From: Rhodospirillales bacterium
GTDB taxonomy: Bacteria > Pseudomonadota > Alphaproteobacteria > Rhodospirillales > SHVU01
Assembly (NCBI GenBank): GCA_009691105.1
Contig: SHVU01000009.1
Span: 1 to 64,000 of the forward strand
Direction of reading: 5' to 3'
DNA: 64,000 nt
In this document: positions 10,297-26,655 of the stretch, piece after piece
Position numbering within the stretch: position 1 is the stretch's first letter
Layout of the letters: each line of letters begins with the position of its first letter
Notes under the pieces: generated by a model
The model's input: only the letters and a program-made list of their open reading frames with translations
Told to the model about the DNA's origin: nothing
Databases searched by the model: none
Translations under genes and position numbers: made by a program

Positions 10297-11301
10297 ATGG
10301 AGCGGCGGCGGCTCGGCGGAAGCGGTATCGACGTGTCGGCGATTTGTCTCGGCACGTTGATGTTCGGGCATCAATCGACGGATGCCGAAGGCCGCCGCAT
10401 GCTGGACTTGGCCCGCGAGCGCGGCGTCAACTTTCTCGATACGGCCAATACCTACGGTCTCGGCCAGTCAGAAGACGCGCTGGGCCGCCTGATGTCACCA
10501 GGCGAGCGCCAGAAATGGATCATCGCCAGCAAGACCGGCATGATTTGGAACGACAAGCCCAACCGGTCCGGCATGAGCCGGAAATGGATTCTGGAATCGA
10601 TCGACGCCACTTTGCGACGTCTGCGCACCGACTACGTCGACGTCTACTACATCCATCGCGACGAGCCCGAGGTGCCCCTCGAGGAGCCGATGCGGGCCAT
10701 GGCAGACATCGTGCGTCAGGGGAAGGCGCGTTACATCGGGCTCAGCAACTTTGCGGGTTGGCGGATCGCCGAAGCGGTCGCCGCCTGCGATCGGCTCGGC
10801 GTGCCCCGGCCGACGGTGTGCCAGCCCTATTACAACGCCGCCAACCGCATGGCCGAAGTCGAAATCTTTCCGGCCTGCGTCCACTACCAGATGGGCATCG
10901 TCCCCTATAGCCCGCTGTCGCGCGGCGTCCTGACCGGCCAATACGGACGGCGCACGACGGTGACGCCGCACCTCAAAGCGCGGGCCAAGTATTCGCAAGT
11001 CATCCGTTCGGACTTCCGGCCCGAGTCTTTGGCGCTCGCCGAAACCATCGGCAAGCACGCCGCCGGGCGCGGGCAATCGACGATCCATATGGCCGTGAAC
11101 TGGGTCCTGAACAATCGCCTGGTGACGTCGGTCCTGGCCGGGCCGCGGACGGCCGCGCAACTGAAAGATTATCTCGACGCCGTGGACAAGCCGTTCACGG
11201 CCGCCGAAGAAACGCTCATCGACGGGCTTGTGCCGGCCGGCGCGCCGTCGAGTCACAATTGGATCGATCCGGTCCTGCCGGCCACCGGCCGAGGCGTGTG
11301 A
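10297..11301 (+). CDS. Aldo/keto reductase
   Basis: TIM-barrel NADPH-dependent oxidoreductase of 334 residues. The four catalytic residues can be picked out: Asp and Tyr in FLDTANTYG, Lys in ASKTGM and His in VYYIHRDE. The N-terminus MERRRLGGSGIDVSAICLGT is typical of the AKR11/AKR13-like group. The start ATG at 10297 follows GAGGCGGGG. It is divergent from the SDR pair, and the dioxygenase gene at 11309 starts 7 bases after its stop, so these two are probably co-transcribed. Confidence 0.92.
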   Translation: MERRRLGGSGIDVSAICLGTLMFGHQSTDAEGRRMLDLARERGVNFLDTANTYGLGQSEDALGRLMSPGERQKWIIASKTGMIWNDKPNRSGMSRKWILESIDATLRRLRTDYVDVYYIHRDEPEVPLEEPMRAMADIVRQGKARYIGLSNFAGWRIAEAVAACDRLGVPRPTVCQPYYNAANRMAEVEIFPACVHYQMGIVPYSPLSRGVLTGQYGRRTTVTPHLKARAKYSQVIRSDFRPESLALAETIGKHAAGRGQSTIHMAVNWVLNNRLVTSVLAGPRTAAQLKDYLDAVDKPFTAAEETLIDGLVPAGAPSSHNWIDPVLPATGRGV

Positions 11302-16554: not shown

Positions 16555-17568
16555 TTAGTGCTTGGCTTTGCCTTCTTGGATCGACTGGGAAATCTTGCGG
16601 GCGATTTCCGCGGCGTCGCCCTCGACGGCGAAGGCGCCTTGAATGGCTTGGGCGAGGGGTTGCAGAAGCCGCAGGTCCTTTGCGGTCGGGCTCTGGACGT
16701 TCGCGGCGATGTTTCCCGCGACCTTGATCAAGCTCTGACACAATTCGGAGACGTGGCCGTACTTGGTTCCGACCAAGCGCCGACCGGTATCTTCGGCGAC
16801 GCTGCGCAGGCGTTCGAGGTGGCGCACGAGATCGTCGTTGATTTCGCCTTTCTGATACGACGGCAGGATCAGCTGGACGAGCACGCCAATCTGGATGGCA
16901 TGGCGCTCGAGCTTTTGAAGATTGATGGCGGCGGTCGCTTTCTCGATCGCCATATCCATCAGCTGAGCGGCTTCGATGGAGCCGGTCGCTTTGATCTTAA
17001 GGATATTAGGCACTTCGATCGGGATGATCCGCATCCCGGGCCGCTGCTCGGCGCCTTCTTTGTCCTTGCGCCGGTCGGGACCGATGTAGTCGCTCGTGAC
17101 GATGAAGTGCTTGCACGCTTTGATCAGGTTGGTGATGCGCTCCATGACCTGAGCGGCGGTGACTGGCTTCGCCACGAAATCGTCAGCGCCGCTGAACATC
17201 ACGCGTCGGATCAAATCCGGAGTCGGATGACGCGACATCAGGATGGCCGGCAAGAACGGATCGGTCCCGAGCGCCTGGTGACGCACTTCGGTCATCAGGT
17301 TGCAGGTGTTGCCGTCGGGCAGGGCGACTTCGGAGATCAGCAGATCGACCGGGCGCTCGCCGATCGCCGCGCGCAGTTCCGCAACCTACGTCCCGGTACG
17401 GATGTCGCGGAAACCGTTTTCGTGGATCACGCCTTTGACCGCCTCGCGGGTGGCCAAGTCATGATCGATCAGCAAGACGCTGACTTCGGAGAAATTAAAT
17501 TTGACCTCGTCAGTCGCGCCAGGACCCGTACGGGCTGACGGTTGCATCTCCAGTCTACCTTCGCTCAA
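16555..17568 (-). pseudogene. Response-regulator receiver protein with a premature TAG and Glu at the phosphorylation site
   Basis: A 337-codon frame. The receiver domain begins near codon 29 (VSVLLIDHDLATREAV), is broken by TAG at 17386-17388 (codon 61), and resumes in frame with VAELRAAIGERPVDLLIS through FVAKPVTAAQV. The remaining 160 residues are mostly helical with no recognised output domain. At the expected phospho-acceptor position the sequence is SEVALPDG, with Glu instead of Asp, a change that can mimic phosphorylation. The conserved Lys is present. The part after the stop could be translated alone only from an internal start, which would lack the N-terminal half of the receiver. 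Confidence 0.8.
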
Positions 17569-20047: not shown

Positions 20048-21043
20048 ATGGCACTCACACCCATTCAGATCGGCCCGGTCCGGTTGGACCATCCGGTGAT
20101 CCTCGCCCCGTTGTCGGGCGTCACGGATATGCCGTTCCGCTGCTTGGTCAAGCAGAGCGGGGCGGGGCTTGTCGTGTCTGAAATGATCGCATCCGAGGCG
20201 ATGGTCCGGGCCAGCCGCAAGACCCTGACCCGCGCCGCTCACGCTCCCGAGGAACGACCCATTTCCGTGCAGCTTGCCGGTTGCGATCCGGAGCTGGTGG
20301 CCGAAGCGGCGCGGATCAACCAGGACCGCGGCGCCAAGATCATCGATCTCAACATGGGCTGCCCCGTAAAAAAGGTCACCAACGGCCAGCATGCTGGTTC
20401 GGCCCTCATGCGCGACGAGATTAAAGCGGCGCGGATCATGGAAGCGGCCGTGAAGGCGGTGAGCATTCCGGTGACGCTCAAGATGCGGACCGGCTGGGAC
20501 GACACGAACCGCAACGCGCCCGCACTCGCCCGTATCGCCGAGGCGTGCGGCATCCGCATGATCACCGTTCATGGACGGACGCGCTGCCAGATGTTCGGCG
20601 GCAAGGCCGACTGGCCCTTTATCCGCACCGTCAAGGACGCCGTGTCGATCTCGGTGATCGGCAACGGCGACGTCAACACCGTCGAGGATGCGCGCGATCT
20701 GTTGGCGGCGTCGGGCGCCGATGGCGTGATGATCGGACGCGGCGCTTGTGGGCGGCCGTGGTTCCTGTCTCAGGTGATCCGCTTCCTCGAGACCGGCGAG
20801 CGCCTTCCCGATCCGCCGCTCGACGCGCAACGCATCACCGTTCAGGCCCATTACGACGCTATGCTGTCCCACTACGGGACGAGTGCCGGATTGAAGATCG
20901 CCCGCAAGCATCTCGCCTGGTACAGCCGTGGCTTGCCCGGTTCCGCCGAGTTCCGCCGCGACGTCAATGTCGCCGAGGATCCGGCCCAGGTCCGCGCCTT
21001 GGTCGATCGCTTCTACGGCGCCACTATGGATGCGGCGGCCTGA
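20048..21043 (+). CDS. dusB: tRNA-dihydrouridine synthase B
   Basis: FMN-dependent enzyme that reduces specific uridines in the tRNA D-loop. The product is 331 residues. Dus motifs are [12 protein letters not shown], the catalytic Cys in [12 protein letters not shown], the LKMRTGWDD strand, ITVHGRTR and IGNGDVN with [13 protein letters not shown]. In alphaproteobacteria dusB (formerly nifR3) heads the ntrBC operon, and here the next start codon follows its stop directly. Confidence 0.96.
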
Positions 21044-21613
21044 ATGGGAGACGTGACGGCGCTTCCCAAGCTTGCGACCGGCCCCCGGTTCGCCGCCGCG
21101 GAAGTCCTCGACGTCTTGTCTCAAGCTGTTCTTGTTATTGATCGCGACGACGCCATCGTGTTCGTTAATCCGGCCGCCGAGCAATTGTTGCAGGCGAGTG
21201 CCGCGCATATCGTCGGTCGCGGCGTCGACACGATTTTTTCAACCGACAGTCCGCTGTTCGCGGCGATCCTCAAGGCGCGGCGAGACGATCAACCGGTCGC
21301 CGAGTTCGGCGTCGATCTCGCGAGCCCGCGCTTTGGACGGCGCATCGTTGACGTATCGGTGGCGCCGCTCGCCGAGAACGCCTTCCTCGTGATCGGGCTG
21401 CACGAACGTTCAATTGTCGATCGCGTCGACCGCCAACTGAACCACCGCGCCGCGGCTTGCTCGGTCAGCGGTCTTGCCGCCATGCTCGCCCACGAGATCA
21501 AGAATCCCTTGTCGGGTATTCGCGGCGCCGCGCAGCTTCTCGGCCTCAACCGCAACACGCTCCGCAAGAAGATCCGCGAACTCAATATCGCGGTCGGGCT
21601 GGCGCCGCGATGA
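21044..21613 (+). CDS. In-frame fusion of truncated NtrB to the C-terminal end of NtrC
   Basis: The first 166 or so residues are NtrB: a PAS domain (ALPKLATG to FLVIGLHERS) and the start of the dimerisation/phosphotransfer helix with the H-box MLAHEIKNPLSGIRGAAQLL. The next residues, GLNRNTLRKKIRELNI, are not NtrB. They are the recognition helix and C-terminus of the NtrC Fis-type DNA-binding domain. Missing are the NtrB ATPase domain and the NtrC receiver, AAA+ domain and most of the HTH, about 2 kb in relatives. The 189-residue product cannot be an active kinase or activator. It starts directly after the dusB stop and overlaps ntrY in an ATGA. Confidence 0.9.
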   Translation: MGDVTALPKLATGPRFAAAEVLDVLSQAVLVIDRDDAIVFVNPAAEQLLQASAAHIVGRGVDTIFSTDSPLFAAILKARRDDQPVAEFGVDLASPRFGRRIVDVSVAPLAENAFLVIGLHERSIVDRVDRQLNHRAAACSVSGLAAMLAHEIKNPLSGIRGAAQLLGLNRNTLRKKIRELNIAVGLAPR

Positions 21614-23866
21614 TGGCGGCCACTCGCACGCTGGATCGACGGACCATGCGCGTCCGGCTCTGGGCGCGCCGCATTGGGCTTGGTCGCAAACTGGCCTTCG
21701 CGCTGGCGGCGGCGGCGGCGGTGTCCGGGACCACGACGGCTGCAGCGCTTGCCGGCTATTCGCCGTTGGGGATCGGTCCCGACGTCGTTCGCGCGCTGCT
21801 CTATCTCGACATCGTGATCGTGTTGGCGCTGGGCGCCGTCGTGACGCGTCGCGTCGTGACGGTGTGGGTCGAGCGACGCCGCGGCTTGGCCGGATCGAGC
21901 CTGCTCATCCGGATGGTGGCGTTGTTCAGTGTGGTGGCAGTGACCCCGGCGATCGTCGTCGCGGTGTTTTCGGCGCTGTTTCTCGATTTCGGCGTGCAGG
22001 CGTGGTTCAGCCAGCGGGTTCGGACCGCTCTCGATGAATCGCGCGCCGTCGGACACGCCTATCTTCGCGAGAACCAGCAGAATATCCGCGCCGACGCGTA
22101 CGGCATGGCTTTCGATCTGAATCGTCAGGCGTTCGAGCTCATGCGGTCGCCACCGCAATTTAGCCAGGCGGTTGCCTTCGGAGCTGCGAAGCAGGGCCTC
22201 GACGAAGCCATGGTCATCGACCGCTCCGGACACATCCTGGCGCGGGGGCCGTTCAGTCTGGCGCTCGAGTTCGAGAAAATTCCCGCCGAGGCGCTCGATC
22301 GCGCTATGCAACGCACCATCGTCACCATTGCCAGCAGCACCGACGAACGTGTGCGCGCCATCGTCTTTCTCGAGCCGTTCGGCGATGCGTTTCTGGTTGT
22401 CGGGCGACGCGTCGATCCAAAGGTTCTGGAGTCGATTCAACGGACGGATAGCGCCGTTGCGCAGTACCAGTCTCTGGAGCAGCGCCAAGCCGATATCCGG
22501 ATCACCTTCGTCGTCATCTACGGTGTCGTCTCGGTCCTGATGTTGCTGGCTGCCGTCTGGGTCGGCATATCGTTTGCGACTCAGCTCGTCGAGCCGATCG
22601 GCTCCGTGATCTCCGCGGCCGACCGCGTCGCCAAGGGCGATCTGACGGCGCGAGTCGAGGCGACCGTCGCCAGCGACGAAATCGGGGTCTTAAGCCGCGC
22701 CTTCAATCGCATGGCCGAGCAGATCGACAACCAGCGCCGCGGCTTGGTCGAGGCCAACCGCGAACTGGCCGAGCGGACGCGCTTTACGGAAACCGTGCTG
22801 ACCGGCGTCTCCGCCGGCGTCATTGGCCTGGATGCCGAAGGACAGATCCGCCTTGCCAATCGCTCGGCCTCCGATCTTCTCGGGGTTCAGCTCGACGCCG
22901 AAGTCGATCGGCCCTTCGCCGAAGCGATCCCGGAGATGGCGGACCTCTTCGCCGAAGCGGCGCGACGGTCGGACCGGCCGGCGAATGACGAAGTCAAAGT
23001 GGCGCGCAAGGCGCGCTCCCAGACTCTTCAGGCGACCATCGTCGCCGAGAAACTTGAAGGACAGATCGTCGGATATGTCGTGACGTTCGACGACGTGACC
23101 GAACTTCTGTCGGCGCAGCGGACGGCGGCTTGGGCCGATGTGGCGCGTCGCATCGCGCACGAAATCAAGAACCCGCTCACGCCGATTCAGTTGTCCGCCG
23201 AACGCCTCAAGCGTAAGTATCTGAAAGAGATCACCAGCGATCCGCAAACCTTCACGGCCTGTACCGACACCATCGTGCGCCAAGTCGAAGACATTGGCCG
23301 GATGGTGGACGAGTTCTCGTCCTTCGCGCGGATGCCGCAGCCCTCGCTGAAACCGGAGAGCCTCGCCGAGATCTGTCGTCAGGTCGCGTTCCTGGAACGC
23401 AGCCGGAGCACGGCGATTGCCATCGACCTCGATCTGCCGCCCGCCGACGTAACGTTGAATTGCGATCGTCAACAGGTTGGGCGGGCGTTGACGAACGTAC
23501 TCAAGAACGCCGCCGAGTCGGTCACGGCCCGGCCGAAGTCCGAGGACGGACCTTTGGCCAAGGGTCGCATCCGCCTGACGTTGCAGGAGGCCGACACCGC
23601 CGACGGCCGCGAAGTGCGCCTGATCGTCGAGGACAACGGTATCGGCTTGCCTCGCGAGCAGCGCGATCGATTGACCGAGCCCTATGTCACGTCGCGCGAA
23701 AAAGGGACGGGGCTTGGCCTAGCCATCGTCAAAAAGATCATGGAAGACCACGGCGGCCAAGTGATGCTCGAAGACCGCGAGGGCGGCGGCGCGCGCGTCT
23801 CGCTGGTCTTCGGGCCGACGCGCAGCGCTCCGATCGCCGATGAGGCGGTGCCGAGTTTGGTGTCCC

Positions 23867-23877
<11 letters not shown>
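21610..23877 (+). CDS. ntrY: Sensor histidine kinase NtrY
   Basis: Membrane sensor kinase of 755 residues. Two N-terminal hydrophobic hairpins lead to a long periplasmic region (FSQRVRTALDESRAVG onward). They are followed by a transmembrane helix and HAMP segment (VEPIGSVISAADRVAKGDL), then a PAS domain (TGVSAGVIGLDAEGQI). The H-box is WADVARRIAHEIKNPLTPIQLS, and the ATP lid shows NVLKNAAESV, VEDNGIGLP and GTGLGLAIVKKI. It pairs with NtrX in nitrogen and redox control. The start overlaps the stop of the ntrB-ntrC fusion, so the junction of the fused gene with ntrY is undisturbed. Confidence 0.95.
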
Positions 23878-25267
<1,390 letters not shown>

Positions 25268-25279
25268 GGCGGAACGATC

Positions 25280-26655
25280 ATGAAGGTCATCGTCTGCGGC
25301 ACCGGCATGGTCGGCTCGAATATTGCCCGCTATCTAGCGGCGGAAAACAACGACGTGACGGCCATCGATCAATCGAGCGACCTAGTCCGACGGTTGAGTG
25401 ACACCACCGACGTCCAAGGTGTCGTTGGGCATGCGGCGCATCCCAACGTCCTCGAGCAGGCCGGGGCCGAGGGCGCCGACATGCTGATCGCCATCACCCG
25501 GGCTGACGAAGTGAACATGGTGGCCTGTCAGGTGGCGCATGCCGTCTTCGCGGTTCCGACCAAGATCGCGCGGGTCCGTCATCAGGACTATCTGCAACCC
25601 ATCTGGTCGAAGCTGTTTTCGCGCGACCACATGGCGATCGACGTCGTCATCTCGCCGGAAATGGAAGTCGCCCGCGCCGTGACTAGGCGGCTGCGCGTCC
25701 CCGGCGCCATCGAAATGATTCCGCTGGTCCAGGACCGGGTCCGGCTTCTCGGCGTTCGGCTGGAAGCAAACTGTCCCGTGTTCACACGCCGCCGCGCCAG
25801 CTCACGCAGCTGTTTCCTGATCTCAGTATCATCGTCGTCGGTATCATGCGTGGCGAGCGCGCCTTCGTCCCGGAACCGGACGATCAACTTGAAGGTGGCG
25901 ATCACGTCTATTTCGTCGTCGACAGCGAAAAAGTGCGTCGCGCCATGGCGACGTTTGGCCACGAGGAAGTGGAGGCGAAGCGCCTCGTCATCTTCGGCGG
26001 CGGCAATATCGGGCTGTTCGTCGCCGAGCAGATCGAGCGCGACTATCCCTGGATCAACGCCAAGATGGTCGAGGCCGACCGCGAGCGTGCCGAGTTCGCG
26101 GCGAGCCGCTTGAAGCGGACTGTCGTTATCAACGGCAGCGTGCTGGAGCCCGAGATCCTCGACGAATCCGAGGTCGGCTCGGCTGAGACCGTCGTCGCCG
26201 TCACCAATGACGACGAGACCAATATACTGGCGTCGCTGCTCGCCAAGCGCGAAGGTTGCGAGCGCGCCATCACGCTGGTGAACAAAGACAACTACGAGTC
26301 GCTGGCGCCGACCCTCGGCGTCGACGTCGTCATCAACCCGCGCGGCATCACGGTGTCGTCGATCCTGCAGCACGTCCGCCGCGGCCGCATTCATTCGGCC
26401 CACGCGCTCCGCCAAGGCTTTGGCGAGTTGATCGAAGCCGAGGCGCTGCCGACGTCCGGGCTCGTCGGACCGCCGCTGCGCGATATCAAATTGCCGGACG
26501 GCGTGTTGATCGGGGCCGTCGTCCGCGACGGCCAGGTCATCATTCCGCGCGGCTCGACGGTCATCAACGCCAAGGACCGCGTCGTCTTGTTCGCGACGAC
26601 GGCGGCGATCCGTGACGTCGAGAACATGTTTTCGGTTCGCCTCGAATATTTCTAG
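25280..26655 (+). pseudogene. trkA: Potassium uptake protein TrkA, split by a single-base deletion
   Basis: TrkA is the peripheral NAD-binding regulator of TrkH/TrkG potassium channels. The first frame covers the N-terminal RCK domain (MKVIVCGTGMVGSNIARYLAAE) up to LEANCPV, then leaves family similarity. The next frame back picks up at HTPPRQLTQLFPDLSI and continues to the normal end, including the second Rossmann domain (VIFGGGNIGLFVAEQIE). The break is near 25780, where CCCGTGTTCAC would read through as Cys-Pro-Val-Val-His if one G were added. Each half is well conserved, so the event is recent or a sequencing error. Confidence 0.9.

Follow-up and report, generated by a model that had tools for sequence, protein, structure and literature searches.

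An in-frame fusion of the NtrB N-terminus to the NtrC C-terminal tail between dusB and ntrY in a draft Rhodospirillales genome

The fused reading frame and its flanking genes

The window, the whole 64,000-nucleotide stretch of DNA that was analysed, contains a fused ntrB'-'ntrC reading frame at positions 21044-21613 (+), which encodes 189 amino acids and is open from ATG to TGA. Upstream is an intact dusB (nifR3) gene of 331 codons (20048-21043, +; TIGR00737, 405.7 bits against a cut-off of 293.3), whose end lies one base before the fusion ATG. Downstream is an intact ntrY (21610-23877, +) with NtrY_N, HAMP, PAS, HisKA and HATPase_c domains, and its ATG overlaps the fusion TGA to form ATGA. 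It is followed by an intact ntrX (23867-25267, +) that scores 694.5 bits with NF051870, above the cut-off, and has no GAFTGA motif. These TIGR00737, Pfam and NF051870 matches agree with the first-pass annotation of the DNA, which had described clean dusB and ntrY junctions and an intact ntrY-ntrX pair. Two other genes in the window are interrupted. A frame change near 25770-25850 divides the trkA gene (25280-26655, +), both halves of which match PRK09496 TrkA. A response-regulator-like gene (16555-17568, -) carries an in-frame TAG that leaves reading frames at 17386-17568 and 16555-17295, and its receiver match contains one stop inside.

In the fused product, NtrB contributes residues 1-166 and the end of NtrC contributes residues 167-189. 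The NtrB PAS domain (residues about 21-110; 21104-21373, +) was detected with Pfam PAS models and is modelled by AlphaFold with a pLDDT of 91-98 over residues 21-120; the solved NR(II) PAS structure 3b33 was a top PDB structural match to the fusion (TM 0.80 by target length). DHp helix 1 is represented by its first part (21470-21541, +), which matches positions 4-29 of the 66 in the HisKA model over residues 143-169 and aligns to the relatives. This part contains the phospho-accepting H-box, HEIKNPLSGIRGAAQLL (residues 150-166), and ends with AAQLL. Directly after it stands the NtrC C-terminal tail, GLNRNTLRKKIRELNIAVGLAPR (21542-21613, +), which comprises the last helix of the Fis-type helix-turn-helix (HTH), the protein end and the stop codon, and which matches positions 24-41 of 42 in HTH_8. 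In profile searches, PRK11073 (NR(II)/NtrB) matched the fusion only at positions 8-156 of 349 and TIGR01818 (NtrC) just at positions 443-463 of 463; the latter match was found again by an independent search, at 21521-21583. The open frame and the PAS, HisKA, HTH_8, PRK11073 and TIGR01818 matches confirm, as sequence, the fusion of an NtrB N-terminus (PAS plus H-box) to an NtrC tail that had been read from the letters.

Pfam searches of the fusion gave no match to HATPase_c, to the receiver domain (Response_reg) or to the AAA+ sigma-54 interaction domain with its GAFTGA motif, and the HisKA match breaks off at position 29. The Fis-type HTH is incomplete as well, since in the alignment H-box sequence takes the place of its first helix (helix A) and the GNQI turn, and HTH_8 is matched at positions 24-41 only. 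The fusion resembles NtrB/NR(II) (PRK11073, NF008293) in its PAS domain, its H-box and its position after dusB, and over residues 18-167 it shares 42-55% identity with the intact NtrBs of the order, but it lacks most of DHp and all of HATPase_c and, at 74 bits, stays below the cut-off of 240. It resembles NtrC/NR(I) (TIGR01818) in the last 21 model positions and in its place before ntrY, but lacks the receiver, the AAA+ domain with GAFTGA and most of the HTH. Without the kinase, the receiver, the AAA+ domain and the first HTH helix, the product can have kept the activity of neither NtrB nor NtrC. It would have a foldable PAS domain and would lack a complete dimerisation domain, the ATPase, the receiver, the AAA+ domain and a complete HTH. 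Dimerisation through the DHp helix, which had been suggested earlier, appears doubtful given that just the first part of helix 1 is left and that AlphaFold models the helical end (residues 124-153, 155-165 and 170-183) with low confidence (pLDDT about 53-72). Judged by this domain content, the fused frame is most likely a dead, non-functional scar.

The missing stretch and the search for other copies

The interval between dusB and ntrY was compared at 57 alphaproteobacterial loci carrying both genes, where it holds ntrB and ntrC and has a median of 2727 bp. It measures at least 2.55 kb at 50 of these loci, room for both genes, which fits the earlier claim that relatives have a full-size ntrBC here; the seven short intervals range from 181 to 1395 bp. 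Both break sites could be aligned at 13 loci, and there AAQLL in ntrB lies 1964-2033 bp from AA-x-LLG in ntrC. This bears out both the loss of about 2 kb and the break site that the first-pass annotation had proposed. In the window, the break tract AA-x-LL lies at 21527-21541 (+); by comparison with the 13 relatives its ntrB and ntrC codons are interchangeable, and the junction falls in the tract or adjoins it. Recombination between short similar stretches had been put forward as the cause. The site stands, but homologous recombination overstates the similarity, because exact in-register identity at the break sites of the 13 relatives amounts to just 2-9 bp, which is better accommodated by microhomology-mediated joining or replication slippage.

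We therefore favor microhomology at this step, and the event would have been one deletion of about 2.0 kb that kept the frame, with its ends joined where the codon registers of AAQLL and AA-x-LLG coincide; NtrB would have lost its catalytic half and NtrC everything but its last helix. The shared codon register at AA-x-LL makes an in-frame join expected with no further assumption. Ribosomes would still arrive at the ATGA overlap, so that ntrY would be translated from the dusB-ntrYX operon without disturbance, which may be the reason the allele was tolerated.

The genome is a 1.88-Mb draft in 54 contigs, 85% complete, and was examined by family searches and through 20 sampled stretches. Family searches of the contigs found no other NtrB or NtrC in the 85%-complete assembly, to which extent the expected absence of further copies holds, and no orphan ntrB or ntrC fragments were found on other contigs. 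Searches of 60 and then 297 genomes of the order, which include no second genome of the same family, gave no second NtrB-NtrC-tail fusion among the about 150 best matches listed, and all other NtrB matches in that list end at or before query residue 180. NtrB went undetected in about 25 of the 297 genomes. A plasmid search returned just remote NtrBs of less than 60% identity.

Divergence of the NtrB part was compared with the expectation from NtrY. The mean residual was -2.5 points (pair SD 6.3; rank 11 of 47), and the residuals in the five closest comparisons, -4 to -8, are a hint of relaxed constraint in this sequence, short of significance. The NtrB part has thus diverged about as expected from NtrY, consistent with a fairly recent loss; selection is not thereby demonstrated.

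Sigma-54, NtrX and nitrogen control

Family searches detected NtrX as the single strong sigma-54-activator-domain protein in the assembly. Alignment to the solved structures of NtrX (5m7n) and NtrC1 (4l4u) confirmed that GAFTGA is absent from the NtrX of the window; among relatives the motif occurs in all 33 full-length NtrCs and in none of 42 NtrXs. Loss of NtrC consequently removes the sole expected GAFTGA activator of sigma-54. The first reading had assigned nitrogen control to NtrYX or to nothing at all: NtrYX does stand as the remaining system, but a simple takeover of the sigma-54 role of NtrC does not, NtrX having no GAFTGA either here or in any of the 42 relatives. We infer that nitrogen control would rest on PII, AmtB and GlnA at the protein level together with NtrYX acting without sigma-54. 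Alphaproteobacteria with NtrYX only exist, for example Ehrlichia. The window genome is like them in that NtrYX is its remaining Ntr two-component system, but it still has rpoN remnants and a sigma-54 promoter before amtB.

A search for PII and sigma-54 targets, as had been advised, located an intact, contiguous amtB-PII-glnA cluster with one PII gene (contig C53, 7570-10843) and, upstream of amtB, a perfect sigma-54 -24/-12 element, TGGCACAGCGCTTGCT (10847-10862, -). Two such perfect elements occur genome-wide, while the reversed pattern, used as a control, gave none. A palindromic NtrC site was not found near amtB, where one weak match lay below chance expectation. With NtrC gone, the operon would be left without its activator. 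An intact amtB promoter is expected if NtrC and RpoN still work in the population and equally if the loss is recent. Within about 1.2 kb the rpoN gene (contig C32, 11594-12689) shifts frame twice, and it is cut short by the contig end near position 315 of the 434 in the model; its C-terminal part was not found on other contigs. We did not adopt the reading of rpoN as a pseudogene, because the frame breaks sit at the contig end and may be sequence errors. If the deletion is real, this alphaproteobacterium has lost its NtrC switch but not the promoter of the ammonium operon that NtrC is expected to drive, and the case would show the disappearance of a global regulator at an early stage, when its target promoters have yet to decay.

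Erosion of ntrBC at the same locus and the origin of the fusion

The ntrBC genes are lost or eroded at 7 of the 57 dusB-ntrY loci, including those of isolates of Haematospirillum, Gluconobacter and Neokomagataea, and the same locus is eroded independently in several related bacteria. A small separate reading frame with the NtrC DNA-binding tail is kept between dusB and ntrY at six of the seven, with ntrB gone. The NtrC HTH stands alone in Haematospirillum (L067, 9585-9986) and at loci L055 (1426-1788) and L075 (1275-1604), and is accompanied by a degraded AAA+ domain in Gluconobacter (L100, 9252 to about 10010), Neokomagataea (L099, 9054 to about 9810) and L086 (1960-2995). At the seventh locus (L097) everything of ntrBC is lost. 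Between two Haematospirillum genomes the stub is 97.5% identical in nucleotides, compared to 93-94% in the flanks, and its HTH part shows zero amino-acid changes. The genomes of Haematospirillum, Gluconobacter, L055 and L086 have RpoN; in those of Neokomagataea and L075 it was not found. This conservation and the RpoN pattern suggest retention of the HTH stubs and, in part of the genomes, independence from sigma-54. The window resembles these six loci in the place of the deletion and in the small frame before ntrY, but they have a complete NtrC HTH and no NtrB, whereas the window has the NtrB PAS and H-box and one NtrC helix. The fusion appears to belong to the same erosion but to have kept the wrong end for a stub function. 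Translational coupling was ruled out as a general reason for retention of the NtrC tail, as ntrC-ntrY spacing varies.

The fusion could also be an amplification, library or assembly chimera, or a minority allele that won the assembly, in an organism with a normal ntrBC. It is present in one genome only, an incomplete draft in many contigs whose production method is unspecified; frames are broken elsewhere, in trkA within the window and in rpoN at a contig end, and a codon-model scan of 464 kb gave 20 unvalidated frame-break candidates. The intact promoter before amtB would also suit such an organism. Multiple displacement amplification (MDA) can produce chimeras where short stretches, of up to 21 bp, are complementary (PMC1855051), but those that join segments in direct orientation and less than 10 kb apart are rare, making up 11 of 475 chimeras (PMC1855051). 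An ordinary de Bruijn assembly collapse is disfavored, and a real deletion favored, by break-site identity well below assembler word lengths. Moreover, no stray pieces of ntrB or ntrC lie on other contigs, both flanks read cleanly, the break falls exactly at codon-register homology, and erosion of ntrBC at this locus in other lineages makes a real loss plausible. The two frame changes in rpoN are likewise in keeping with a loss, as are the roughly 25 genomes of the order in which NtrB went undetected. An artefact is on these grounds somewhat unlikely. We infer that the deletion exists in cells, with odds of about two in three, and that it is recent.

A further reading makes the product a functional small protein, with the PAS sensor domain, the H-box helix and the NtrC recognition helix combined into a new adaptor or DNA-binding protein that would target NtrY/NtrX or NtrC sites. 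The frame is open, the PAS domain is well modelled, the end has a helix-turn-helix-like form (residues 155-165 and 170-183) where the HTH_8 and HisKA matches overlap, and the NtrC HTH tail is kept and conserved alone in other lineages. In the fusion, though, H-box sequence has been swapped in for helix A and the GNQI turn, the model has low confidence at precisely this end, and with the fusion in no second genome selection cannot be demonstrated, which makes such a function very unlikely. A refinement compatible with a scar is that the frame is held by selection for ntrY translation through ATGA, whatever the peptide does. The overlap of the fusion TGA with the ntrY ATG is in keeping with this, as is the Haematospirillum stub, which ends in the same -4 overlap; coupling is nevertheless not general, with 0-340 bp between ntrC and ntrY in most relatives, and with codon-register microhomology the join falls in frame by itself, without any need for selection. 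We regard a selected bridge of this kind as unlikely. The reading that we prefer, at a probability of roughly 0.6, is that about 2.0 kb were deleted in frame at microhomology, leaving a most likely non-functional scar and removing the sole expected GAFTGA activator.

In mechanism the fusion is ordinary, and its interest lies in what the deletion removes and in the recurrent pattern. A broader proposal is that ntrBC has been dismantled repeatedly and that pieces beside ntrY, a free NtrC HTH elsewhere and a PAS-H-box-helix hybrid here, still work, for instance as competitors for NtrC sites or as sigma-54-independent partners of NtrYX; we consider it speculative and quite unlikely. Literature searches on ntrBC loss in Acetobacteraceae, ntrBC pseudogenes and Gluconobacter ntrC found nothing relevant. 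Isolates would allow a test of the pattern in which ntrBC erodes independently and the NtrC HTH stays behind as a small conserved reading frame, even where rpoN was not detected. The complete genome of Commensalibacter melissae, in which no rpoN was found, has ntrB and ntrC homologues at the locus, as if NtrC worked there without sigma-54.
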